Below are positions 5,758-44,362 of a DNA stretch of 46,074 nucleotides, one piece after another. The DNA comes from Clostridia bacterium (GTDB taxonomy: Bacteria; Bacillota; Clostridia; Oscillospirales; Acutalibacteraceae): NCBI GenBank assembly GCA_017435865.1, contig JAFSEF010000112.1, positions 1-46,074 on the forward strand, in the 5' to 3' direction. The translations under genes and the position numbers were made by a program. Numbering within the stretch: position 1 is the stretch's first letter; the number at the start of each line of letters is the position of its first letter. A model generated the notes under the pieces. It was given only the letters and a program-made list of their open reading frames with translations. It searched no databases and was not told where the DNA came from.

Positions 5758-7761
5758 TTAATAGATGACAGCATTTGTGAAAGAGGGATATCCGTAAGGG
5801 GTGGTTGTGATCCCTTTTACGTTGGTATTCTGTAAAACGGGAGTCGAAAAATAATACAAAGGCATAACGACACCTGTTTCCATCAGCAGATCTTCAGCCA
5901 TGTGCATCAGACGGTAACGGAGTGCAACATCTGTTACGGACCAGATAAGAGAGATGAGAATGTCATAGGTTTCTTCCCATGTTGCATTGATCACTTTGTA
6001 ATTCAATCCGAGCGGTGTCAGATCCAGACTGTAGGCACCGACGGAAGCGTGAGCACCGTTGCCGAGTTGAGCAGAGTTGTTACCGGATTTGCTGTAGAAC
6101 ATTTCAAGGAAATTAACAGGATCATTGTAGTCGGCAATCCAACCGTCGCGGATCACTTCAAAGTCGCCGTTTGCTCGATTCTCGAGCAGTGTAGCCCAAT
6201 CTGTTTCTTTGATGCTGATCTGAAGGCCGTATGCGGCGAGATCGCGTTGAATGCTCTGTGCAATGGCTTTGTGACCTTCGCCGTTGTGCAAAATCTCTGC
6301 TCCGGGGAAGTCTGTGAACTTGCCTGTGCTTGTGTTGTAGGAATAATATTTACGCAGGGTTGCAACAGCAGCATTGCAGTTTTGCTGATAAGCAAGGGGG
6401 AGTGTATCATAATAACCGTGATATTTTGTTGTTGGACCTGCATTTTCATAGAACAGCTCACCGGCACCTGCATCCGCTACGGTATTTGCAACAAATGTGG
6501 ATGCTGCATTTTCAGCGGGCAAACCGACTGATTCAAGAATGGATTGTCTGTTGATGAGAAGTGCAAGTGCCCTGCGGATTTCAGCTTCTGCCTTTTCTTT
6601 TTGAGAGCCCTTCAAGGTGCTTGTCCGCGGCAACAGGGAGTGGTTTGCGTTGAATACATAATAATAGGTGCCCATGTTGTTAAGATTGCGGAAGGCAGGG
6701 TCGGAGGAACCATAGGTTTGTGCAGCTTCGATGTTGTTTGTGAAATGCAGATTTCCTGTTTGAAAAGCGGACAGCACGGCAGCTGTGTCATCGGTCACGG
6801 AAAATGTGATTTTTTCTATGTTTGCTGCATTGTGATAATGATTGTTTTTGGTCAATTGTATCGTGTTATCATCGGACCATTCCGATATCGTATAGGCTCC
6901 GTTGCAAACAAAGGAAGAAGCCTCATTTGCCCAATTCGTATTGTTTTCAACAACCGATTGTTTGACAGGCATGAAAATGCTGTTGGTAAGCAGATCAAAC
7001 AAATACATGCAAGGCCAGGCAGTAACAACGGTCAGTTTGTTCCCCTGTGCATGCACATTGAGTTTTGCTGACGGATCATTCTGCATTTCCATGTAACCGT
7101 CAATATCATAAAACAGGTAATTGAAAGCAGCGTATGTGTCGGGGGCTGCAGCTCTGTTCCATGCATATACAAAATCGGCAGCTGTCAGCGGTGTGCCGTC
7201 AGACCATTTCAGATTGTCTTTCAGTTCAAAAACATAGGTGACTTTTCCGTCTTCAGCGACAGTGCCGACGGGCAAGGATTTTGCACAGTCCGCGACAATG
7301 TAATACTTACCGTTTTCATCCTGTTCGTATTTTGTCAGACCGGCAAACAAATGCTGAACAATGGTAAAATCATTGTAAGCAGAAGCAAAGGCAGGGTCAA
7401 GAGATTCGGGTTCAATACCGGTATTTACATGCAGGTGTTGCCGTGCGGCAGGCAGACGATCAAGATTGACTGCAACTCGCAGTGCGGTACGGGCATCGGA
7501 TGCATCGTATTTGCCGTCTCTGTTTGGGTCAGCAGCCTTGCGATAATCATAATTCTCAGCATCTCTGCAATTTTCAGCCAGTGTTTCCCATGTTTCCAGA
7601 TGAACGGAAAGACGGAGTATCGTACGGGCATCTGCTGCTGTAACACTGCCGTCGTTATCTGTGTCACCGGGCAAATAATATTTTTCTGTTTCGGCTACGA
7701 CGAACACGGATAAAGGAAAAATCAGCAAACAAGTTAAGGCCAAGCATAAAAAACGTTTCAT
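5758..7761 (-). CDS. Dockerin-bearing oligopeptide/solute-binding protein (SBP_bac_5 family)
   Basis: 667 residues. Residues 1-23 are a type I signal peptide with no lipobox Cys. Residues 31-103 are a type I dockerin: two calcium-loop/helix halves, PGDTDNDGSVTAADART and ADPNRDGKYDASDARTALR. From about residue 110 (NTGIEPESLDPAF...) to the end is a full-length OppA/DppA-type binding protein, with LKWSDGTPLTAADFVYAWNR the family signature. The family captures oligopeptides or, in some cases, oligosaccharides for an ABC importer. A dockerin directly before such a protein is unusual, and the lack of a lipid anchor suggests attachment through a cohesin instead. No permease genes accompany it. It is co-directional and tightly linked with the alpha-galactosidase, which suggests a galactoside-related ligand. 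The start has GAGAGGTG upstream. Confidence 0.85.
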   Translation of the reverse strand: MKRFLCLALTCLLIFPLSVFVVAETEKYYLPGDTDNDGSVTAADARTILRLSVHLETWETLAENCRDAENYDYRKAADPNRDGKYDASDARTALRVAVNLDRLPAARQHLHVNTGIEPESLDPAFASAYNDFTIVQHLFAGLTKYEQDENGKYYIVADCAKSLPVGTVAEDGKVTYVFELKDNLKWSDGTPLTAADFVYAWNRAAAPDTYAAFNYLFYDIDGYMEMQNDPSAKLNVHAQGNKLTVVTAWPCMYLFDLLTNSIFMPVKQSVVENNTNWANEASSFVCNGAYTISEWSDDNTIQLTKNNHYHNAANIEKITFSVTDDTAAVLSAFQTGNLHFTNNIEAAQTYGSSDPAFRNLNNMGTYYYVFNANHSLLPRTSTLKGSQKEKAEAEIRRALALLINRQSILESVGLPAENAASTFVANTVADAGAGELFYENAGPTTKYHGYYDTLPLAYQQNCNAAVATLRKYYSYNTSTGKFTDFPGAEILHNGEGHKAIAQSIQRDLAAYGLQISIKETDWATLLENRANGDFEVIRDGWIADYNDPVNFLEMFYSKSGNNSAQLGNGAHASVGAYSLDLTPLGLNYKVINATWEETYDILISLIWSVTDVALRYRLMHMAEDLLMETGVVMPLYYFSTPVLQNTNVKGITTTPYGYPSFTNAVIY

Positions 7762-17745: not shown

Positions 17746-18435
17746 TTATGCAGCAGGACCTGTCGGACCCTGCGGAATGGTAAAGTTGAGAACATAGTCG
17801 GGTGCGGTGCCTGTGATGGTTACAGCAGCTGCTGTGCCGGGATCACCTGTGGTGACGGTACCGATGGTGAATGTGGGTGTTACACCGTCTGCACCTGCAG
17901 GACCTGTGGGACCGACTTCACCTGCAGGACCTGTGGGACCGATTTCGCCTGCGGGACCTGTAGGACCGATTTCGCCTGCGGGACCTGTGGGACCGACTTC
18001 GCCTGCAGGACCTGCGGGACCGACTTCGCCTGCGGGACCCGTGGGACCGATTTCACCTGCGGGACCTGCGGGACCGACTTCGCCTGCGGGACCTGTAGGA
18101 CCGATTTCGCCTGCAGGACCTGTGGGACCGATTTCGCCTGCAGGACCTGCGGGACCGATTTCGCCTGCAGGACCTGTAGCACCTGTAGCACCTGTCGCAC
18201 CTGTCAGACCTGTAGGCCCGGTCGGCCCTGTCGGCCCTGTCGGTCCTGTGGGGCCTGTGGGGCCTGTGGGCCCGGTTGGTCCTGTTGTACCGCTGCCCGG
18301 GTCAACAGGCGGCGGACAGACAGGAATACAGCAGTTCTGACGGCAACAGTTGTTCTCGTCGCGAACAACATTGGTCGGAAGTGCATCAAAAAAGCAGCCG
18401 CAGGCATCGTCCTGAAAGTATTGATACTTAGCCAT
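17746..18435 (-). CDS. Collagen-like surface/exosporium protein (BclA type)
   Basis: 229 residues with AAAGGAGG before the ATG at 18435. Residues 1-48 are a Cys-rich leader ([18 protein letters not shown]) without a signal peptide. Residues 49-183 are 45 unbroken Gly-X-Y triplets: a GPT-rich block followed by nine-residue units of the type GPTGPAGEI. Residues 184-229 ([15 protein letters not shown]...[11 protein letters not shown]) are the short beta-rich end typical of clostridial collagen-like proteins. The Thr in GPT triplets is the glycosylation site in BclA stalks. Lack of a signal peptide suits assembly on the spore from the mother cell. Closeness to spoIIE and a GT2 enzyme fits an exosporium role, but this is inferred. 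Confidence 0.88.
17887..18291 (-). repeat. Coding repeat: Gly-X-Y collagen stalk
   Basis: 405 bp of tandem 9-bp triplet codons, with a higher-order 27-bp unit ([12 protein letters not shown]) in the 3' two-thirds. Synonymous third positions vary between units, so length is likely to change by recombination between strains. Confidence 0.9.
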
Positions 18436-18685: not shown

Positions 18686-19699
18686 TTGGCAGCAAAAACA
18701 TCCCACGCACAGCAGCGTAAACAGCCGCAAAAAAGGCTGCACACTGCAGTTATGTTGCTTGCCGTTTGCAATGTTGCGGTGCTTGCCGCCATCGGTGTAT
18801 TGCTGATTGTCAGTTCCTTTTATGAACCGCCGCAGCAACCGACCGAAAGTCTTGTAGTTATGACACCGGTTCCCACGCAGCCGCAGACAACGCAAATGCC
18901 CGTTCCGCAAGGATTCTTTGAACATGAAGGTGTGTTCGCGGACGAGTTGACGGCTGCATTGCCGCAAAGTCAGCCGCCTGCTATGATGCAGGAAAAATAC
19001 AAAGCCCTGTATGCACAGAATCCTGACTTCATCGGCTGGATCACAATTGACGGAACAAGCATTGATTTCCCTGTGTATCAGGCACAGGACAACGAAAAAT
19101 ATATGCGTGCCAATCCGTATCTTGAATATGACCGCCGCGGCAGCATTTTTATGGACTACCGTTGTCAGACAGGGGTTTCGCGTGCACAGTTTTCTGCGTG
19201 TACAATCCTGTACGGTCATCATCTGATTGCCGATGACTCGTTGTTTGCCGAAGTGGAAAATTATTTGTCGGTTGCGTATTACAAAACCCATCCCGTTGTC
19301 CGCTTCAACACCCTGTACGGGGATTACGAATGGTTTGTGAGTGATGTTTTTCTGACCAATGTGGATGAAAAAGATGACAACGGCAATGCTTTTTACTACC
19401 TGTACACAAAATTTACGGACGATGCCGCCTTTGCTGCATTTACCGATGACATACATGAAAGAAGTTTTATCCGCAACCCTGCCGTGCAGATACAGCCGGA
19501 GGACAAGCTGTTGCTGCTTTCCACCTGTACCTATCGTTTGGGAGAACAGACCGATGCACGGTGTGTGCTTGTCTGCCGTCTTCGCAGGCAGAACGAAGCC
19601 GCTGTCCCCGATGTTTCCGCTGCTGTGCAGAATGACAATCCGCATCTGCCGCAGATCTGGTACGACCTGCATGAAAACGGGGAGAATCCATGGAAATGA
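18686..19699 (+). CDS. srtB: Class B sortase
   Basis: 337 residues. The start is TTG at 18686: AAAGGAG lies at 18669-18676 with good spacing, and the next ATG falls inside the membrane segment. Residues 22-43 are one membrane anchor, followed by a Pro/Thr/Gln-rich linker (48-75). The catalytic domain shows DFIGWITIDGT, the His in LYGHHL (His178), Cys281 in LLLSTCTY and Arg292 in TDARCVLVCR, all required residues. Class B sortases cut a short C-terminal motif and link the protein to peptidoglycan. No substrate with an obvious sorting signal is seen next to it. The next gene is a second sortase 39 bp downstream. Confidence 0.92.
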   Translation: MAAKTSHAQQRKQPQKRLHTAVMLLAVCNVAVLAAIGVLLIVSSFYEPPQQPTESLVVMTPVPTQPQTTQMPVPQGFFEHEGVFADELTAALPQSQPPAMMQEKYKALYAQNPDFIGWITIDGTSIDFPVYQAQDNEKYMRANPYLEYDRRGSIFMDYRCQTGVSRAQFSACTILYGHHLIADDSLFAEVENYLSVAYYKTHPVVRFNTLYGDYEWFVSDVFLTNVDEKDDNGNAFYYLYTKFTDDAAFAAFTDDIHERSFIRNPAVQIQPEDKLLLLSTCTYRLGEQTDARCVLVCRLRRQNEAAVPDVSAAVQNDNPHLPQIWYDLHENGENPWK

Positions 19700-19738
19700 C
19701 GTTTAACAGAAATTGTTTAGTGATAAGGAGAATTGAAA

Positions 19739-22654
19739 ATGGCTGAAAAGGAAAGAGATGCTTATTTGCCTGATTCGGATGAAAGTGTTGATGCAATTCT
19801 TGCGGAAGTACTCGGCACATCCGGCTCCAAAGGCAGCAATTATTATGAGCTTTACAAGCGTTACAATGTTGGAATGCGTAAAGATGCCAAGGATGTAATC
19901 AAAAAAGAAGAAGCTGCCGAAGAACCTGTTGCCGCACCGCAGGAAAAAGAGGCACAAAGTACTCTGCATACGCAGTATCGTGAAAAGGAACCGCAAAGAA
20001 AAGCGGATGACTATACTGCCGAACAGATTGCCGATACATATCGTGCCGCAGCTGCAAAATATGAGGTCAACGGCTATCATTTCTCGCAGCCTTCGCAGCC
20101 GTATTTCACAGGCTACCCGACTTATATGCCGCCTGCATATTCACCTTATATGCAGCCGCCTGTGTATACACCCTACGTTCAGCCTTATGCACAGCCTTAC
20201 GGTCAGCCTTATATTCCGCCTTATGCACAACCCTACGCACAGCCTTACGGTCAGCCTTATGCACAACCTTATGCACAGCCCTACACGCAGCAGCCTTATA
20301 TGCAGCAGCCGGGCTACAATGCTGCAGGTTATTACGCACAGGAAACAACGCAGCAGAACGAAGAAAAACAGAAATCTCCCACTTCTCAGTATGCTGCAGC
20401 GGCCGGAGAACGTGTGGTGTTTGATGCTGATTGGGAAAACGGAGCACCGCCGCAGCCCGGCAACAATCCGATTCCCGGCGGCAAACCAATCCCCGTAACC
20501 ATGCACAATGACGGCAGACCGCTTGTCAATCCCGCTTTTATTGATCCTATTTCGGATGATGCGGAAGATCTTGATTTTGAAGACGGTGCCATCACTTTCA
20601 GCAGCCGAAAAAAAATAAAAACTCCTGAAGACAATAATCAGAATTTTTTTCCGGAAGGTTTTTCCGTAACAAATAAGAATGCTGCCGCAGACGGAAAAAC
20701 CGTAAAAACGAAAGCGACAGAACAGGAACAGGTTTTTGATTCCGTTTCCGCCGAAGACGAACTTGCACACGCAAGCAAAACAGACTGGATGATGACTGAA
20801 CAGGAGATTCAGCAGAATCAGGAGCAACTGCGCAACGAAAGCAAGGCGGAAAAGAAAAAGAAAAAACGCAGAAAATCAAAGAAAGAACCGCAGGAAGAAA
20901 CGGTCATTCCCGTCGCTCCTGTTGAGGAAGAAAGCGTTCCGCAAATGCAGGAATCTGCAGCAGAAGAACAAGCGGAAGCGTCTTTTGATGAGTACCGCGA
21001 AGAAGACTTTGCAGCATATCCCGAAGAGACTTTTGAGGAGTATGCGGAAGAAGATTTTGCAGAATACTCCGAAGAAGCTTTTGAAGAATATGGTGAAGAC
21101 GCTTTTGAGGACATTTCCGCACCGCAGCAACCGTCCCTGACAGCCGAGCAGGCTTTCGAGATGATGAACTACGGCAGTGCGAAGAATGCCGGCAGATCTG
21201 TTGCCGACAATGAAGCAGAAGAAATCGGTGAAAATTCTGCTTACGATTATGCGGGAGCGTATGACGATGCGCAGGAAGAACCGCAGATCAATTATTACGG
21301 AGGTGAACAGGATTTGTATTATAACAAACCCGAAGTCAACGAAAACGAAAACAAAAAAGTGAAGAAACCGGGCAAATTCAAAGCCTTTATTCTGCGCAAT
21401 GTTCCGCATAAAGGACAAACAAAACGCGAGTTCATCAGTTGCCTTATCATGAACCTTGCTTTTGTGGTTCTCATCGGCGGACTTGTGTTCTGCGGAGTGT
21501 ACCTGCGTAACTACAAGGACACACTCACCAAGGATGACGATCTGCAGAAGATTGTTGACGAAATGAGAGGAAAAGAGATCAATGACGTTGACCTTGACAA
21601 CCTCTGGGGTGAGTTGAAAGCACTGTATCCCGATGTTGTTTTTCCCGACGGACTCAACCCCGTACTTGCAAAGCTGTATGCAATCAACCAGGATGTTGTC
21701 GGTTGGCTTTCCATTGACAGTCTTGACCTTTCTACCGTTGTGCTGCAGTCCTATGACAATGATTATTACCTGTACCGCAACACCTACAAGGAAAAGACCG
21801 AATACGGTACCCCCTTTGCTGATTATCGCAACGATATGAACTCCAAGCAGTTCAGCCGCCACACCATCATTTACGGCCACAATACCTATGACGGACTGAA
21901 GTTCTACAATCTGACCCGTTATACGGATCTGAGTGCCTACCGCATGGCTCCTGTCATTGAAATGGAAAGCAAATTCAACGGCACCACTTACTGGAAGATT
22001 TTCGGTATTGCCATCAGCGACTCCGAAACCGATGAATTTGAATACCTGTACACAGACTTTGCTTCGGAAGAAGACTTCCTTGCACTGGCAGACGAAATCA
22101 AGGCACACTCTATGTTTGATATTCCCGTGGATGTACAGGCAGGTGACAACATCCTGACACTGTACACCTGTTATCCCAACTATTTCCAGAGCGGTCGTCT
22201 TTGCATCTTTGCAAGACAGGTCCGTGCAGGGGAGGATATGACGGTCAACACCGCCCAGGCAGCTGTCAACATTGACTGTCTGTATCCCGATGCTTACTAC
22301 GGCAAGACGTACGATCCCGATGCCACCATTCCCGGTGCGGATGCGGATGAACCTGATGCACAGACTCCTGCAACACAGGCTCCCACTGCTGCTCCCACGG
22401 AAGCTCCCACCGAAGCTCCTGAAGAAGCTCCCACCGAAGCCGAGGACGAGGATTACGGTTACGGAGAGGACTACGGTTACGGAGAAGACTATGGCTACGG
22501 TGAAGAAGACTACGGCTATGGCGAAGAAGACTACGGCTATGGCGAAGAAGACTATGGCTATGGCGAAGAAGACTATGGCTACGGCGAAGAAGACTATGGC
22601 TACGGCGAAGAAGATTACGGTTATGAAGAAGATGCCGGCGAAGTTGTCGGCTGA
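19739..22654 (+). CDS. Giant class B sortase with long cytoplasmic and extracellular low-complexity arms
   Basis: 971 residues from the ATG at 19739, eight bases after AAGGAG; a TTG two codons earlier is too close. Residues 1-560 are predicted cytoplasmic and disordered: a Gln-Pro-Tyr repeat region (YAQPYGQPY, about 120-200), Glu/Lys-rich stretches and FEEYAEEDF-like repeats (about 415-460). One membrane segment spans about 565-588. The sortase B domain (about 640-830) keeps His714 (IIYGHN), Cys811 (TLYTCYP) and Arg820 (GRLCIFAR). A Pro/Thr-rich linker and six 7-residue units GYGEEDY end the protein. Ordinary sortases have about 200-350 residues, so both arms are exceptional; the acidic Tyr/Gly tail faces the wall. 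Probably in one operon with srtB and the next gene (20-bp gap). Confidence 0.88.
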   Translation: MAEKERDAYLPDSDESVDAILAEVLGTSGSKGSNYYELYKRYNVGMRKDAKDVIKKEEAAEEPVAAPQEKEAQSTLHTQYREKEPQRKADDYTAEQIADTYRAAAAKYEVNGYHFSQPSQPYFTGYPTYMPPAYSPYMQPPVYTPYVQPYAQPYGQPYIPPYAQPYAQPYGQPYAQPYAQPYTQQPYMQQPGYNAAGYYAQETTQQNEEKQKSPTSQYAAAAGERVVFDADWENGAPPQPGNNPIPGGKPIPVTMHNDGRPLVNPAFIDPISDDAEDLDFEDGAITFSSRKKIKTPEDNNQNFFPEGFSVTNKNAAADGKTVKTKATEQEQVFDSVSAEDELAHASKTDWMMTEQEIQQNQEQLRNESKAEKKKKKRRKSKKEPQEETVIPVAPVEEESVPQMQESAAEEQAEASFDEYREEDFAAYPEETFEEYAEEDFAEYSEEAFEEYGEDAFEDISAPQQPSLTAEQAFEMMNYGSAKNAGRSVADNEAEEIGENSAYDYAGAYDDAQEEPQINYYGGEQDLYYNKPEVNENENKKVKKPGKFKAFILRNVPHKGQTKREFISCLIMNLAFVVLIGGLVFCGVYLRNYKDTLTKDDDLQKIVDEMRGKEINDVDLDNLWGELKALYPDVVFPDGLNPVLAKLYAINQDVVGWLSIDSLDLSTVVLQSYDNDYYLYRNTYKEKTEYGTPFADYRNDMNSKQFSRHTIIYGHNTYDGLKFYNLTRYTDLSAYRMAPVIEMESKFNGTTYWKIFGIAISDSETDEFEYLYTDFASEEDFLALADEIKAHSMFDIPVDVQAGDNILTLYTCYPNYFQSGRLCIFARQVRAGEDMTVNTAQAAVNIDCLYPDAYYGKTYDPDATIPGADADEPDAQTPATQAPTAAPTEAPTEAPEEAPTEAEDEDYGYGEDYGYGEDYGYGEEDYGYGEEDYGYGEEDYGYGEEDYGYGEEDYGYGEEDYGYEEDAGEVVG
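22490..22615 (+). repeat. Six tandem 21-bp coding repeats (GYGEEDY-type)
   Basis: Six 21-bp units at 22490, 22511, 22532, 22553, 22574 and 22595, differing only at a few synonymous bases; shorter 15-18-bp relatives precede them from 22450. They encode the acidic Tyr/Gly tail of the giant sortase and are likely variable in copy number. Confidence 0.93.
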
Positions 22655-22674
22655 GAACTGATGAGGGTAAAGAA

Positions 22675-23964
22675 ATGGGTTTGAATTTTAAGATATTGGT
22701 CTTTGGTACGCAGTGGAACAACAAAGCTGAAAAAATCGGTGATGAACTGCGTTATATGTTAAAGGGATATCTGCAACCGGGCAAGGAAATTGCTTTTTAC
22801 GAATCCATGTCAGAAGCACTTCCTGAGTTTTATGCCCGTTTTCAGGGAACGGATGTCATCTTTTTGCTGGCGGATCCCTCCATTTATGCACAAACCAAAA
22901 AAATGCTTTCCGATGCACTGCGTCTGCGTCTGCAGGCAGAAGCTGCATATGTGGTCAGTGCCCGCAAGCGACTCGGTGACTTTGATGTCAATTCCGAGGA
23001 AATGCTTGCCCATTGCATGGTGCCCGAAGGTAAGCAGTCTTTCTGTATGGATGACGGTCTGTATTCAGGTTTTGCGGCAACCGCAGGCAAGCAGAATATG
23101 ATTCTTCTGCCTTTTGAAAAAGAGCGTACCGTGCGAATGCTCGGTGAACAGGTGTTTCCGTATCTGAATCATTTTTATGATATTTCTCTTGATATTCATG
23201 CATCCGAACGCTACCATGCAAATCTTCTTGCACAACTGCTGGAAGAAAAAGAGAGCATGATTGCCGTTTCCGGCACAAAGACATCCGTCTTTTTGCGCAG
23301 CATTGCCGAACAGGATCCCGTTCTTGCTTCTTTGCTGCGTTTTACACCGTCTGCCGAAAGCATCGGCAATCTGCAGCCTGTGGAATATGCCGTCAACCTG
23401 TCCATTGCGGCTTCCGAACTGGAGGATTGTCCTTACGGTGCTGCCATCACCAATGCTTATTACACAGGCAACGATATGTCGGCTCCCAAAAAGGTCTTTA
23501 TTGCATTCACGGATGAGGACGATTCCGCTGTGCGTGAAATCACTTCTTTCCCCGATGAAACGGTGGAACTTTTCCTGAACCGCTGTGCATTGGAGCTGAT
23601 TGAGTTTGCCATTGAACGCATCACGGATGCAGAAGAAAAAACACAGGAAGAAGACGCACCGAAGGCCTTTGTCAGCCGCAGCACCATGACGGTTCTGACC
23701 TCCATTGCTGCCGTAGGTGCCGTGCTGTGTGTGTTGGTTTCGTTCCTTGTGACCAATCTTATGATCAAGAACCGCGAACAGGACAACAGCGGCATGGCAG
23801 ATGTTGCGATAACGGATGTTATGCAACCGACCACGCTTGCCCCCGAATTGCCCACAGAGACGGCAACCACACTTGCACCCGAGCTGCCCACAGAAACCGC
23901 AACCACGCTTGCTGCCGTAACACCGACAGAAGAAGCAACAACAGTTTCAAACGAACTGAACTGA
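22675..23964 (+). CDS. Membrane protein with a degenerate CinA/MoCF-like cytoplasmic domain
   Basis: 429 residues. The first 170 residues resemble the N-terminal domain of CinA: KILVFGTQW at the start, DVIFLLADPS where CinA has DLVILTGGLGPT, CMVPEGKQ and then GKQNMILLPFEKERTVRMLGEQVFPYL, which mirrors LPGPPxEMxxMxxxxxxPxL. The GGxGPTxDD active-site loop is lost, so it is probably not an enzyme. Residues 171-330 have no recognised motif. One membrane segment (about 343-367) leads to a short outer tail with two copies of TTLAPELPTETA. No signal peptide. It sits 20 bp after the giant sortase gene and 30 bp before galE. Function unknown; a regulatory or scaffold partner of the sortases is a guess. 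GAGGG precedes the ATG. Confidence 0.6.
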   Translation: MGLNFKILVFGTQWNNKAEKIGDELRYMLKGYLQPGKEIAFYESMSEALPEFYARFQGTDVIFLLADPSIYAQTKKMLSDALRLRLQAEAAYVVSARKRLGDFDVNSEEMLAHCMVPEGKQSFCMDDGLYSGFAATAGKQNMILLPFEKERTVRMLGEQVFPYLNHFYDISLDIHASERYHANLLAQLLEEKESMIAVSGTKTSVFLRSIAEQDPVLASLLRFTPSAESIGNLQPVEYAVNLSIAASELEDCPYGAAITNAYYTGNDMSAPKKVFIAFTDEDDSAVREITSFPDETVELFLNRCALELIEFAIERITDAEEKTQEEDAPKAFVSRSTMTVLTSIAAVGAVLCVLVSFLVTNLMIKNREQDNSGMADVAITDVMQPTTLAPELPTETATTLAPELPTETATTLAAVTPTEEATTVSNELN

Positions 23965-23994
23965 ACTTTTTAACATTCCCGGAGGATATATAAT

Positions 23995-25011
23995 ATGGCT
24001 GTTCTTATTACCGGCGGTGCCGGATTCATCGGTTCTCACACCTGTGTCGAGCTGCTCAATGCAGGTTTTGACATTGCAGTGCTTGACAATTTCTGCAACT
24101 CCAATCCCGAAAGCTGCAAACGTGTTGAAAAAATTACAGGCAAGAGCTTTCCTGTTTATAACTGCGATATCCGCGACAAAGACGGTCTTGACAAGGTTTT
24201 TGCAGCCGTCAGACCCGAAGCTGTTATTCACTTTGCAGGACTCAAGGCAGTTCCCGAAAGTGTTTCCAAGCCGATTCTTTATTATGATAACAACATTGCA
24301 GGTACCGTTACATTGCTCAAAGCCATGAACGATGCCGGTTGCAAGTGCATTGTTTTCAGTTCTTCCGCAACCGTATACGGCGACAGCAATCCCGTTCCGT
24401 TCAAGGAAGATATGCCTGAAGGCAATACCACCAATCCCTACGGTACCACCAAACTGTATATTGAACGCATCCTTAAGGATCTGTGCATTTCCGATCCCGA
24501 ATGGCACGTCTGCATTCTGCGTTATTTCAATCCCATCGGTGCACATGAAAGCGGCATGATCGGTGAAGCTCCCAACGGCATTCCCAACAACCTCATGCCC
24601 TACATCACCCAGGTTGCAGTCGGCAAACGCGAAAAACTCAGCGTTTACGGTGATGACTACAACACACCCGACGGTACGGGTGTGCGTGACTACATCCATG
24701 TCACTGACCTTGCCATCGGCCATGTCCGTGCGGTGGAACGTGCACTGAAAACAGCAGGCTCCGAAATTTTCAACCTCGGCACCGGTCACGGTGTCAGTGT
24801 TCTTGACCTTGTACACGCATTTGAAAAAGCCTGCGGCAAACCGCTGCCTTATCAGATCGTGGAACGTCGTCCCGGCGATATCGATACTTCTTATGCAGAT
24901 GCTTCCAGAGCCAATGAACTGCTCAACTGGAAAGCAGAACGCGATGTCAACAAGATGTGCGAAGACAGCTGGCGTTGGCAGAAAAACAATCCCAACGGCT
25001 ACGATGCCTGA
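23995..25011 (+). CDS. galE: UDP-glucose 4-epimerase
   Basis: 338 residues, the usual length. GGAGFIGS (7-14) is the NAD-binding glycine motif; Ser124 in SSSATVYG and Tyr149/Lys153 in NPYGTTK are the catalytic triad; RYFNPIGAHESG, DGTGVRDYIHV and RRPGDI are GalE signatures for UDP-sugar binding. It interconverts UDP-glucose and UDP-galactose in the cytoplasm, supplying galactose for glycans or clearing galactose from alpha-galactosides. GGAGG precedes the ATG. Its position inside the sortase/surface-protein run, rather than with gal genes, points to surface glycan supply, but this is inference. Confidence 0.95.
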   Translation: MAVLITGGAGFIGSHTCVELLNAGFDIAVLDNFCNSNPESCKRVEKITGKSFPVYNCDIRDKDGLDKVFAAVRPEAVIHFAGLKAVPESVSKPILYYDNNIAGTVTLLKAMNDAGCKCIVFSSSATVYGDSNPVPFKEDMPEGNTTNPYGTTKLYIERILKDLCISDPEWHVCILRYFNPIGAHESGMIGEAPNGIPNNLMPYITQVAVGKREKLSVYGDDYNTPDGTGVRDYIHVTDLAIGHVRAVERALKTAGSEIFNLGTGHGVSVLDLVHAFEKACGKPLPYQIVERRPGDIDTSYADASRANELLNWKAERDVNKMCEDSWRWQKNNPNGYDA

Positions 25012-25030
25012 TGTGCAAAGGGATGATTTT

Positions 25031-25999
25031 TTGAAGCGTTTTATATCTTGTATACTGACGTTGGTTTTGTTTTGCGGCGTGTGCAGTGTGTCTGTGTCAG
25101 CCGCTGTCCCCTCGGAAATCACCTGGTGTTATGTTGAGGAGCAGGCAGATTCTGCTGTTCTTCATTTTGAAACACCTGCCCACCTGCTCTCTTCGGTGCA
25201 ACAGTATGAGCTTTCCGCAAACGGTTCCGAATGGATGGTTGTCGCAGGCAGTGAGGGCGGCAGTACAACGCTTTCAAAGGGCGGTTATGTGCATTTGCGA
25301 TGCAAAGGGGCGGACGGATATTCTTCCGTTTGCACGGTGTATGTCAGCTTCGGTGAAATGTACGGCATTGCGGATGTGCAATCGGGTGTCAGTTGCATCT
25401 ATCGTGCATCTGACCTGTTTCCGCAGAATGCGTATCTCACCGCAGATTGTATCACCAGCGGCAAAGTATACGAAACGGTGCAACAGGCTGTGCCGACATC
25501 ACGACCCTTCCGTTTGTATGACATTTATTACCTGTACGGCAACGGCAACACCTTCCAGACGGCAAGTGCACCTGTGTTGCGGCTTCCGTTGGATGATGTG
25601 TTCCTGCGCGGGTATTGCAATGCATATTACGTCAATGAAAAAAATCATACAACACAGATGCTTGATGTCAGTTATGACCGCACAAGTGTTTCGTTCCGCA
25701 GTTGCGGACCCGGCTTATATTATATCGTCAGCACTTACAAGCAGGGCGACCCTGTGTATGTGGTGACGGCGCCTGTGCTCGGTACTGTCTTTTCCTTTTA
25801 CGGCAGACGTCTGCTGGCAGGTGATGCCGACGGCAATGCCATCATTGAAGCAGCCGATGCAAGACTGACTTTGCGAGCTGCGGTCGGCCTGGAGGCTCTT
25901 ACCCCCATGCAGGAAGAATGTGCCGATGCTGACTGGGATTGTCACATCACGGCTGCCGATGCAAGACTGGTGCTGCGTAAGAGCGTAGGTTTGTCATAA
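25031..25999 (+). CDS. Secreted dockerin protein of unknown function
   Basis: About 322 residues from TTG at 25031, which has AAAGGG upstream and opens directly on a signal peptide (KRFISCILTLVLFCGVCSVSVSA). An ATG at 25004 in the same frame overlaps the galE stop but lacks a ribosome site; translational coupling is possible. Residues 30-250 form one or two beta-rich domains I do not recognise. The C-terminal 60 residues are a type I dockerin with two halves, AGDADGNAIIEAADARLTLR and DADWDCHITAADARLVLRK, so the protein should dock to a cohesin on a scaffold. The first loop keeps the calcium Asp pattern, the second replaces Asn with Trp/Asp-Cys, a weaker loop. Last gene of the likely sortase operon. 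Confidence 0.8.
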   Translation: MKRFISCILTLVLFCGVCSVSVSAAVPSEITWCYVEEQADSAVLHFETPAHLLSSVQQYELSANGSEWMVVAGSEGGSTTLSKGGYVHLRCKGADGYSSVCTVYVSFGEMYGIADVQSGVSCIYRASDLFPQNAYLTADCITSGKVYETVQQAVPTSRPFRLYDIYYLYGNGNTFQTASAPVLRLPLDDVFLRGYCNAYYVNEKNHTTQMLDVSYDRTSVSFRSCGPGLYYIVSTYKQGDPVYVVTAPVLGTVFSFYGRRLLAGDADGNAIIEAADARLTLRAAVGLEALTPMQEECADADWDCHITAADARLVLRKSVGLS

Positions 26000-26049: not shown

Positions 26050-26078
26050 TTGACAAATTATAAATTTTTTAATACAAT
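26050..26078 (+). promoter_or_regulatory. Strong sigma-A promoter for the secreted protein at 26110
   Basis: TTGACA (26050-26055), 17-bp A/T-rich spacer, TACAAT (26073-26078). A second TTGACA partly precedes it at 26044. The predicted leader is about 25 nt, ending in AGGAGG. Confidence 0.82.
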
Positions 26079-41918: not shown

Positions 41919-44330
41919 TTATTTCAGCCAAGTTTCCGTGTTTTCAAGACTGACAGCTGCACGCAGAATCATTCTTGCATCATCTGCCATGATTTTGCCG
42001 TCGCCCGTAATATCTGCGGCAAGTGACTGAATCGCGGACAGGCTTTCGAGGTTGACCGCTTTACGCAGGGTCATTCTTGCATCGTCTGCCATGATAAGAC
42101 CGTCAGCAGCGATATCGCCGAGCACTGCAATTTCAAGTGTCGTGCCGTCGGGCAGGAAAAGGATGCAGCCGGTATAGCACAATACATCTTTTTCGAGAAT
42201 AAAGCCGTACTCATTGGTGATGTACGAAGTCGGGGAAGCCTGTGCGAGCAGTTCTTCAATCGTGCGACCCTTGACGGAGGTAATCGTTTCGTCCTCTGTT
42301 TTCTGCGACAGGGAAGAGTCTTCAAACACGGCAATCAGTTTCGGAACAGAAGTACCTTCTTCAATCTTTTCACCGCAATCAAGGCAGTATGTGTCACCTG
42401 TGTAACCGTCTTCGAGGTAGGTCGGGAATTTTGCTCCGCGAATTTCGGTGTTGTAGTGGTCACAGGTAAGTTTGTATTCAAACAGACTCGGTATATTGAA
42501 AAAGTGTCCGTTCAGACCGTTGTAGCCTTTGTATTCAATGTCCGAAGTACCGCTGAGATTCTGTAGCAATTCTGCATCGTCACATTCCACATAAATGGTG
42601 GCGGCATGGAAATGCTCTGCATTGACAACGCAATCCTCGTTGCGTTTTGCATCGGCAGCAAATTCTTCCGCTGTCCACAGAGCTTCTTTGAAGAACGCAC
42701 TGAGTTTGATTTCGTTATTGACTTCGGCTGCACATTCGGCAGTGAAGGAGTTAGCTTTGCTGTCGCCTGTTTCTGCAGCATCTGCTCCGTATTCCCAATA
42801 ATCAAAACGCACATCTGCAAAAGACGGAACGATTATATAGGTTTCAAATGAGGTCATGCCGACACAGTCATTGAGGTAGACATCGAGCTTGTAATAGTTG
42901 TCATACTCTCTGTCAGGGCTGATGACCACGTTCACATAACCGTTCTCAGGCAACGGCAGAACAGGAATGACAGTTCCGCTTGCAATCTTTTCACCGCAAT
43001 CGGTACAGAATGTATCACCTGTGTAACCTTCTTCGGAATGGGTGGCATCTTTTTGGTTGCGGATTTCGGTATTTTTGTGCGGGCAGGAGAGATTGAACGT
43101 CATCGGTACTGTCGCACCGTATACAAAACCGAGAGTTTCGTATGTCTTGTTGTTAAAAGTGTTGCCTTTGAATTCGATGTCAGCTGTTGCGGTGATGCCT
43201 TCAATGAGGGTCTGATCATCGCACGTCACATAAATGGTGGCAGCGTGGAATTTTTCGGTGTTGACCGTAACGGTCTGTCCGCGTTTTGCATCGGCGGTAA
43301 AACTGTCTGCCGTCCACAGGCATTCCTTAAAATAAGCACTGTACTTCAGAGTCCTGCTGTCAAGCAGATTGCATTCAGATGTATATGCATTGGTTTTGGT
43401 TTTTGCAAGTTCCTCGGCATCTGTACCGTTTTCATTGTATGAATATTCAACGGCATATTCTGCGGGCAGATTGAAGAACAGTTCATAAGAAGTAAGGCCG
43501 ATGCAGTCATTGAGGTACACATCGAACACATACTCACCATAGTCTGCATCATAACTGACTTGAGCACTGATGTGTGCATTGTCGGAGATGCTTATAAATT
43601 CACCTGTCAGTTTCGGGATGACGGATCCTGTTGCAATCTTTTTGCCGCAATCAAGGCAGTATGTGTCACCTGTGTAACCTTCTTCGGAATGGGTGGCATC
43701 TTTTTGGTTGCGGATTTCGGTATTTTTGTGCGGGCAGGAGAGATTGAACGTCATCGGAACTGCCACACCGCTTACAAAACCGATGGTTTCGTATGTCATG
43801 CCGTCAAAGGTATTGCCTTTGAATTCAAGGTCAGCTGTTGCGGTGATGTTTTTAAGAAGAGCCTGATCATCGCACGTCACATAAACGGTGGCAGCGTGGA
43901 ACTTTTCGGTGTTGACCGTAACGGTCTGTCCGCGTTTTGCATCGCCTGTAAAGCTGTCTGCTATCCACAGACATTCTTTAAAATAAGCACCGTATTTCAG
44001 AGTCTTGCTGTCAAGCAGATTGCATTCAGCCGTGTATGCGTTGTTTTTGGTTTTTGCAAGTTCTCCGGCATCTGCACCGTTTTCATTGTATGAATATGCA
44101 ACGGCATATTCTGTGGGTAAATTAAAAAACAGCTCATAAGAAGTAAGACCGATACAGTTGTTGAGGTACACATCGAACGCATACTCACCATAGTCTGCAT
44201 CATAATTGACTTCTACACTGATGTGTGCATTGTCATCAACGACAACCAATGCCGATGCAAAACACGGCAACAGGCTGAAAAGCATGCCGATCACAAGAAA
44301 AACAGACATTGCCTTTTTGTAAAATTTCAT
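41919..44330 (-). CDS. Secreted three-module dockerin protein
   Basis: 803 residues from the ATG at 44330, with AAAGGAG upstream. A signal peptide precedes three modules of about 217 residues. Each begins HISVEVNYDADYGEYAFDVYLN, has GLTSYELFFNLP and a HAATxYVxCDD strand, and ends with HKNTEIRNQKDAT and the knuckle TGDTYCLDCGxKIATGS, in which two Cys may bind metal or form a disulfide. Modules 1 and 2 are nearly identical, module 3 diverged. The C-terminal 65 residues are a type I dockerin (two halves with MADDARMTLRKAV and MADDARMILRAAV). The module beta-pattern could be a divergent cohesin, but this is unproven. It should be a secreted component of a surface complex. Confidence 0.85.
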   Translation of the reverse strand: MKFYKKAMSVFLVIGMLFSLLPCFASALVVVDDNAHISVEVNYDADYGEYAFDVYLNNCIGLTSYELFFNLPTEYAVAYSYNENGADAGELAKTKNNAYTAECNLLDSKTLKYGAYFKECLWIADSFTGDAKRGQTVTVNTEKFHAATVYVTCDDQALLKNITATADLEFKGNTFDGMTYETIGFVSGVAVPMTFNLSCPHKNTEIRNQKDATHSEEGYTGDTYCLDCGKKIATGSVIPKLTGEFISISDNAHISAQVSYDADYGEYVFDVYLNDCIGLTSYELFFNLPAEYAVEYSYNENGTDAEELAKTKTNAYTSECNLLDSRTLKYSAYFKECLWTADSFTADAKRGQTVTVNTEKFHAATIYVTCDDQTLIEGITATADIEFKGNTFNNKTYETLGFVYGATVPMTFNLSCPHKNTEIRNQKDATHSEEGYTGDTFCTDCGEKIASGTVIPVLPLPENGYVNVVISPDREYDNYYKLDVYLNDCVGMTSFETYIIVPSFADVRFDYWEYGADAAETGDSKANSFTAECAAEVNNEIKLSAFFKEALWTAEEFAADAKRNEDCVVNAEHFHAATIYVECDDAELLQNLSGTSDIEYKGYNGLNGHFFNIPSLFEYKLTCDHYNTEIRGAKFPTYLEDGYTGDTYCLDCGEKIEEGTSVPKLIAVFEDSSLSQKTEDETITSVKGRTIEELLAQASPTSYITNEYGFILEKDVLCYTGCILFLPDGTTLEIAVLGDIAADGLIMADDARMTLRKAVNLESLSAIQSLAADITGDGKIMADDARMILRAAVSLENTETWLK
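43015..43106 (-). repeat. Copy 2 of a 92-bp perfect direct repeat within the dockerin protein gene
   Basis: Identical base for base to 43666-43757, spaced 651 bp, which is one module length (217 codons). It covers the HKNTEIRNQKDAT and knuckle region at the module boundary. Confidence 0.95.
43666..43757 (-). repeat. Copy 1 of the 92-bp perfect direct repeat
   Basis: Partner of 43015-43106. The lack of any synonymous change over 92 bp shows recent duplication or gene conversion between modules. Confidence 0.95.
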
Positions 44331-44362
44331 AACAATCGCTCCTTTTGGATATTGCAATTATC

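Follow-up and report, generated by a model that had tools for sequence, protein, structure and literature searches.

Which task could unite two sortases, a CinA-like membrane protein, a sugar epimerase and a dockerin protein in one tight run of genes? The run lies at positions 18686-25999 of the window, the 46,074-nucleotide contig JAFSEF010000112.1 (contig 99 of the assembly) of a Clostridia bacterium (GCA_017435865.1, Acutalibacteraceae), whose genome comprises 3.1 Mb in 133 contigs and is 85% complete. The reading put forward here, at about even confidence, is that the run derives from a membrane module that occurs throughout the family and consists of class B sortase, SpoIID, CinA and a decayed CinA. 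This module is probably an envelope machine, in which CinA and pseudo-CinA hold or control the sortase and SpoIID.

All five genes of the preliminary description, tightly packed on the plus strand, were found in the order SrtB1, SrtB2, the CinA-like protein (termed P429), galE and the dockerin protein, and its reading of the run as one operon-like unit is supported. The junctions, read from the sequence, measure 39, 20, 30 and -8 bp. The SrtB1 stop (19699) is followed after 39 bp by the SrtB2 ATG (19739), which has AAGGAG ahead of it and was used instead of the upstream TTG (19733) given in the list of open reading frames (ORFs). The SrtB2 stop (22654) and the P429 ATG (22675) are 20 bp apart, 30 bp separate the P429 end (23964) from the galE ATG (23995), and the dockerin gene, with its ATG at 25004, shares 8 bp with galE, whose stop is at 25011. 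The features are as follows (NMN, nicotinamide mononucleotide).

18686..19699, plus strand: SrtB1, class B sortase of 337 residues with an N-terminal membrane helix and a TTG start
19739..22654, plus strand: SrtB2, giant class B sortase of about 970 residues with an ATG start
19739..21442, plus strand: N-terminal low-complexity cytoplasmic part of SrtB2
21443..21499, plus strand: membrane helix of SrtB2, from hydropathy
21710..22219, plus strand: sortase domain of SrtB2
22379..22632, plus strand: tandem repeats of SrtB2 that encode its outer tail, Pro/Thr-rich and of GYGEEDY type
22675..23964, plus strand: P429, predicted membrane-anchored pseudo-CinA of 429 residues
22675..23628, plus strand: pseudo-CinA part of P429, with a predicted COG1058/MoCF-like and NMN-deamidase-like fold and no KH domain
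23692..23748, plus strand: membrane helix of P429
23749..23961, plus strand: outer Pro/Thr-rich tail of P429
23830-23931, plus strand: 36-bp repeat within the P429 tail
23995..25011, plus strand: galE, UDP-glucose 4-epimerase, optional operon member
25004..25999, plus strand: dockerin protein of 331 residues with a hydrophobic N-terminus
25820..25999, plus strand: putative dockerin repeats

P429 and the two sortases

Profile comparison with hhalign aligned P429 with CinA at E values of 2e-29 and 3e-28. Unrelated control profiles reached 0.16 or worse, and further control comparisons of CinA with sortase, SpoIID and GalE gave 0.08-0.51. The AlphaFold model of P429 has a mean pLDDT (predicted local distance difference test) of 85 and its best matches in the Protein Data Bank (PDB) are CinA structures. 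The membrane protein previously called 'CinA-like' is thus truly CinA-derived, as judged by profile comparison and model. Both catalytic-domain folds of CinA (COG1058, KH and NMN deamidase domains; T. thermophilus, PDB entries 4CT8/4CTA) are present in the same order, the COG1058/MoCF-type N-domain and the NMN-deamidase C-domain. Unlike CinA, P429 has no KH domain (CinA columns 184-205 and 208-254 are unpaired in the alignment), has lost most near-invariant residues, carries a membrane helix and an outer tail and has sortase and SpoIID as neighbours or fusion partners. In alignment-column numbers, Asp77, the column of the Mg-binding Asp, is kept in 0/92 P429 sequences and Arg392, Glu277 and Cys279 are each kept in 0/91; the Lys310 stretch of CinA has no partner in the P429 alignment. 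The ratio of nonsynonymous to synonymous substitution rates (dN/dS) in nine P429 pairs, two of them near synonymous saturation, indicates purifying selection on pseudo-CinA (sortase rows pairing different paralogues were left out). On these alignments and the predicted model, P429 is a CinA without the KH domain, with a one-helix membrane anchor and with most near-invariant residues lost, i.e. a pseudo-CinA.

The layout of P429 consists of about 335 cytoplasmic residues (predicted), one membrane helix and the outer Pro/Thr-rich tail. The tail stands where, in 29 relatives, a linker runs from the membrane helix to a SpoIID domain on the outside, and therefore looks like a left-over linker. In this respect the preliminary description is corrected. 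The odd membrane protein can be explained as a CinA paralogue, and the unannotated P429 family gains a lead to its function.

Hydropathy predicts a single membrane helix each for SrtB1, SrtB2 and P429. Both sortases score above the Pfam Sortase cut-off of 26.6 bits (SrtB1 30.1, SrtB2 34.2). Their best NCBIfam family is the class B sortase TIGR03064 (E values of 1.7e-42 for SrtB1 and 3.2e-34 for SrtB2), with scores of 145.4 and 118.3 bits, respectively, below the curated equivalog cut-off of 153.75 bits. The active-site His and Cys, followed by Arg, are present in both. The TTG start of SrtB1 has AAAGGAG ahead of it. In SrtB2 about 570 residues precede the membrane helix and the outer tail consists of tandem repeats. 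This type of N-part is a separate ORF in 11/25 same-genus loci, and in 8 of the 25 the N-part of the sortase ORF matches it. The SVDxILAE motif at the SrtB2 start was rejected as a family-wide feature: even with a relaxed pattern, only 3/173 ORFs had it before their sortase domain, a count that leaves out separate N-part ORFs.

A third class B sortase is encoded elsewhere in the genome of the window. Pfam and class B searches of this incomplete genome found these three sortases only, all of class B, despite the presence of LPETGG proteins. Proteins ending in LPETGG signals were seen in L199, L200 and L203 (contigs C130 and C52 of the same genome), the one in L200 with pilin domains. In L198 (contig C56) a 343-residue protein ends in HPNTG and a hydrophobic tail and is a candidate class B sortase substrate. 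A sortase-built pilus cluster was considered; no pilin is present in the five-gene run, and this reading was dropped because the pilin-like LPETGG proteins lie on other contigs. Isd-type and clostridial SrtB loci are the class B sortase loci for comparison. They share class B sortase domains in which His, Cys and Arg occur, whereas the present loci bring together CinA, pseudo-CinA, SpoIID and one to three sortases, and SrtB2 has a giant cytoplasmic part.

Conservation and fusions across the family

In total, 147 loci in one GTDB family and 12 CinA loci from outside it were read, annotated with profiles built for this analysis. The family loci comprise 30 from a search for relatives, 80 from a family profile search and 37 weaker matches. 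The set of 80 contains every listed genome down to an E value of 1.9e-12 and four weaker matches in long frames; other weak rows were excluded. Because the loci were chosen by profile matches, fractions among them are not frequencies in the family.

P429 is present in 102/147 family loci (35 genera), and 100 of these 102 contain a class B sortase. In the first locus set a sortase lies immediately upstream of P429 in 25/25 same-genus and 69/70 other-genus loci. CinA or part of it accompanies a sortase in 112 loci of 54 genera, and none of the 12 CinA loci from other families has SrtB, SpoIID or P429. The neighbourhood is thus strongly conserved within the family and is more than chance. The comparison of gene order around CinA-like/sortase pairs, suggested in the preliminary description as a check, did not refute it.

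CinA is fused to sortase in 41/147 loci (23 genera), and ten of these 41 (5 genera) encode CinA, sortase and SpoIID in a single chain. Pseudo-CinA is fused to SpoIID in 29 loci (11 genera). Curated models identified CinA and class B sortase in 3/3 of the fusions in L106, L108 and L112, of which only L112 passes the TIGR03064 cut-off. Pfam MoCF, KH and deamidase domains were found in L106 and L112 (L108 was scanned by NCBIfam only), and SpoIID_LytB is above the cut-off in L106 and L108. Four relatives that carry the SpoIID partner were checked (L106, L108, L050 and L026), and in each it exceeds the TIGR02669 cut-off. In all eight CinA-sortase chains scanned, a predicted membrane helix separates the CinA part from the sortase domain, and in both pseudo-CinA-SpoIID fusions scanned one separates pseudo-CinA from SpoIID. 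Genomes with a CinA-SrtB fusion often have a second chain of decayed MoCF domain, helix, sortase and SpoIID. The N-part of SrtB-SpoIID chains matches CinA in 3/5 cases (L109, E value 3e-10; L180, 2e-8; L181, 1e-5); for L174 the match is marginal (0.004), and L178 has none. Judged by their domain labels, L211, L212, L228 and L234 are similar. A quick tree of 58 full-length CinA sequences needs three changes of fused state but is compatible with a single origin. At the level of the encoded chains, the fusions show that CinA and pseudo-CinA are physically linked with sortase and SpoIID. Tandem pseudo-CinA genes, one fused to SpoIID and one not, occur in L115 and L153. In L050, thiI-like and cysteine desulfurase-like genes were recognised by eye ahead of cinA.

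The CinA copies keep six residues of the deamidase domain (Ser, Cys, Tyr, Lys, Thr and Arg) in 41/41 fused and 36/36 adjacent cases, and the Mg-binding Asp in 35/41 and 36/36, respectively. The sortases of the CinA-sortase-SpoIID chains (L106, L108, L177, L221, L225, L227, L236-L238 and L240) lack the catalytic His and Cys in 10/10 cases and are thus pseudo-sortases. Both residues are also lost in the other SrtB-SpoIID chains (4/4), whereas His and Cys are each kept in 26/29 CinA-SrtB chains and in 158/167 and 160/167 sortase-only ORFs, respectively; the sequences are divergent, so that the columns are only as good as the alignment, and 2/41 CinA-sortase chains under the score limit were excluded. 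Many modules seem to carry an active enzyme together with a decayed copy. As far as alignments can tell, the parts adjoin or share one chain, and almost all near-invariant residues are intact in CinA. Most of them are lost in pseudo-CinA, although purifying selection acts on it.

Used by itself as a query, the P429 sequence had matches in 31/59 genomes, namely the genome of the window, 25/25 others sampled from its genus and 5/10 sampled from other genera of the family, and in 0/23 genomes from other families of the order. The P429 profile, which also picks up true CinA as cross-matches, matched 143/300 family genomes (69/135 genera). In the order sample it matched 11/394 genomes at an E value of 1e-15, all within the family. 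The class sample gave 18/391 matches, 16 of them outside the family; the 12 of these that were read are plain CinA and four were left out. A scan of sequence collections with the lone P429 sequence found no relative, whereas the alignment query retrieved 25 records (Clostridia, Oscillospiraceae, Ruminococcaceae or Clostridiales), 11 of them from gut samples of goat, sheep, water deer or water buffalo.

A fuller gene order is present in L121, L145 and L159: CinA-C, SrtB, SrtB, P429, dockerin-SpoIID, GalE and dockerin protein. From this order and the dockerin homologues behind galE, the locus of the window looks like the same arrangement minus CinA-C and dockerin-SpoIID, both of which are absent from it. 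Its nearest kin (L023-L025) have no dockerin-SpoIID and no SrtB1. Elsewhere the genome of the window encodes one CinA-C of 175 residues and, on another contig, one SpoIID-type gene; being 85% complete, it may hide more. Of the members listed in the preliminary description, the sortases and P429 stand as core, GalE is optional, and the core partners CinA and SpoIID are lacking in the window.

The proposed envelope machine and its alternatives

Sortases attach secreted proteins to the wall. Pseudo-CinA lies inside the cell by predicted topology and, judging from its residues, CinA chemistry is unlikely; it would therefore hold the outer enzymes in place and may pair with CinA. As a cytoplasmic holder it would gather sortase and SpoIID at one membrane spot, and the cytoplasmic N-part of SrtB2 may serve as a second contact point. 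SpoIID cuts glycan strands (PMC6635528). In the module it would cut these strands open first, and the sortases would then fix secreted proteins onto the wall at the new openings. The locus of the window would have lost CinA and dockerin-SpoIID and kept pseudo-CinA, two sortases whose active-site residues are intact, GalE and the dockerin protein. The claim that the locus joins wall anchoring with cytoplasmic parts is supported; that it couples anchoring to a cytoplasmic scaffold fits the fusions, and the coupling itself is a predicted function.

The overall working would resemble gephyrin/Glp, a cofactor-enzyme fold being reused as an envelope scaffold. With a MoCF-type fold and without the conserved catalytic residues, P429 has one property of a scaffold of this type. 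Glp of Corynebacterium, a gephyrin-like repurposed molybdotransferase acting with the membrane receptor GlpR (PMC10522489), is a known precedent in which such an enzyme fold became an envelope scaffold. P429 differs from it in being of CinA, not MoeA, lineage, in carrying the helix in the same chain and in its partners, sortase and SpoIID. Compared with SpoIID/LytB lytic enzymes, the SpoIID of the module, absent from the locus of the window, is distinguished by fusion to pseudo-CinA or sortase, or by a dockerin. A SpoIID-like protein of C. acetobutylicum with LPXTG motifs is a possible sortase substrate according to PMC4877998.

With somewhat less than even confidence, the module may represent an unrecognised class of transmembrane envelope machine in one gut Clostridia family. 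An enzyme of the nicotinamide adenine dinucleotide (NAD) cycle and its dead copy would lie inside, and an active sortase, in some lineages with a dead copy, and the SpoIID cutter outside. They would form one regulated complex that opens the wall and attaches proteins, each live enzyme having a decayed twin as holder or switch. The literature matches listed, which cover few subscription papers, contain no description of the sortase-CinA-SpoIID combination and no sortase system physically joined to a cytoplasmic metabolic enzyme. An earlier description is possible, and the module is apparently undescribed; what is new is the architecture, and the function is inferred. The CinA-sortase fusions in 23 genera, some extending into SpoIID, offer a testable case for the NAD cycle, or a scaffold evolved from a NAD-cycle enzyme, steering how gut bacteria remodel their wall and attach proteins.

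Several points weigh against the envelope machine. Thr352, the deamidase Thr, is still kept in 23/91 P429 sequences, and no meaningful family emerged when P429 was scanned with Pfam and NCBIfam, and 25 members of its family with Pfam. Two pseudo-CinA loci have no visible sortase: L146, where P429 is at the contig end, and L244, a weak P429 match (E value 1.4e-4) with no sortase within 8.5 kb. SpoIID is not seen in 7/25 same-genus loci (L023-L025, L035, L042, L045 and L047, the last a 3.5-kb contig). CinA is present in 0/25 loci of the window's genus and the locus of the window is without SpoIID, so that the full module is not in one place. Pairing of pseudo-CinA with CinA is a guess, as is the order of SpoIID and sortase action, and interaction, localisation and activity of the module are predictions.

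The main rival explanation is a metabolite sensor: NMN, ADP-ribose or a similar nucleotide would bind to CinA or pseudo-CinA, which would then switch the activity of sortase or SpoIID on the other side of the membrane and so link work on the wall with the NAD cycle. The six deamidase residues kept in all fused and adjacent CinA copies agree with this, and the Lys, Thr, Arg and Tyr among them correspond by our own alignment to residues with a role in T. thermophilus CinA (PMC4246079). The fold also appears to be kept in the pseudo-CinA model. However, pseudo-CinA has lost the Mg-binding Asp in every sequence and most of the other residues, and CinA is missing from the 25 loci of the window's genus, the genome of the window showing only the short CinA-C elsewhere. 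A sensor is thus possible but rather doubtful. That the neighbourhood is kept by descent only, with CinA and sortase uncoupled, would suit the many loci in which they are separate genes. It is highly improbable given that the same parts are fused in different ways, that CinA or part of it accompanies a sortase in 54 genera and that pseudo-CinA is under purifying selection.

The dockerins that SpoIID and the last protein of the run carry, together with the cohesin matches in the genome of the window, could point to a plain cellulosome-anchoring operon. Here, cohesin scaffolds would be attached by the sortases and would serve as docking sites for dockerin-SpoIID and the dockerin protein, and the CinA part would be a historical passenger. 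Scaffoldins anchored by a sortase have been reported in Ruminococcus, and Limousia is predicted to have them (PMC11557425 and PMC12997984). This explanation is improbable, since a passenger is unlikely to be sortase-fused in 41 loci of 23 genera and the profile models also found CinA, SrtB and pseudo-CinA-SpoIID without a dockerin (e.g. L050-L052, L103). A role in sporulation, with the module acting at the forespore as a device paralogous to the SpoIID engulfment system, is quite unlikely as well. SpoIID is part of the engulfment complex with SpoIIM and SpoIIP (PMC9600426), and the SpoIID-type protein on another contig of the window's genome would suit such a device. But a SpoIID domain alone is no pointer to sporulation, because many non-sporulating bacteria have SpoIID-domain proteins (PMC6635528).

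GalE, the dockerin protein and flanking features

The identity of GalE is unambiguous (NCBIfam). A galE gene occurs in 23/102 pseudo-CinA loci and in 3/25 same-genus loci, and was otherwise not found in loci of the genus. GalE is an optional member of the operon.

The Pfam dockerin match of the last protein is weak (E value 0.05, 14.2 bits versus a cut-off of 22.9), with two EF-hand-like repeats visible by eye. Its homologue behind galE in L121 passes the Pfam dockerin model (E value 5.4e-7). Homologues behind galE were found in six other-genus loci (E values of 1.9e-12 to 2.7e-4), and homologues are also present in the three nearest kin of the window. The genome of the window contains five cohesin matches, four above the cut-off, on other contigs (L098-L102). 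One of them is a long protein that combines Listeria-Bacteroides repeats with a weak cohesin.

Promoter-like sites show no clear excess in the region (10 versus 9.8 expected from shuffles), nor do terminator-like sites (14 versus 9.7, standard deviation 3.0), and tRNA and Rfam scans of the window were both empty. Immediately 3' of the dockerin gene is the region's best promoter-like site:

26050..26078, plus strand: promoter-like site with 11/12 consensus matches (consensus match only)

Upstream of the sortases, a divergent gene (17746-18435, minus strand) encodes a collagen-like repeat protein. Two further dockerin-bearing proteins are encoded in the window, at 5758-7761 and 41919-44357 (both on the minus strand).
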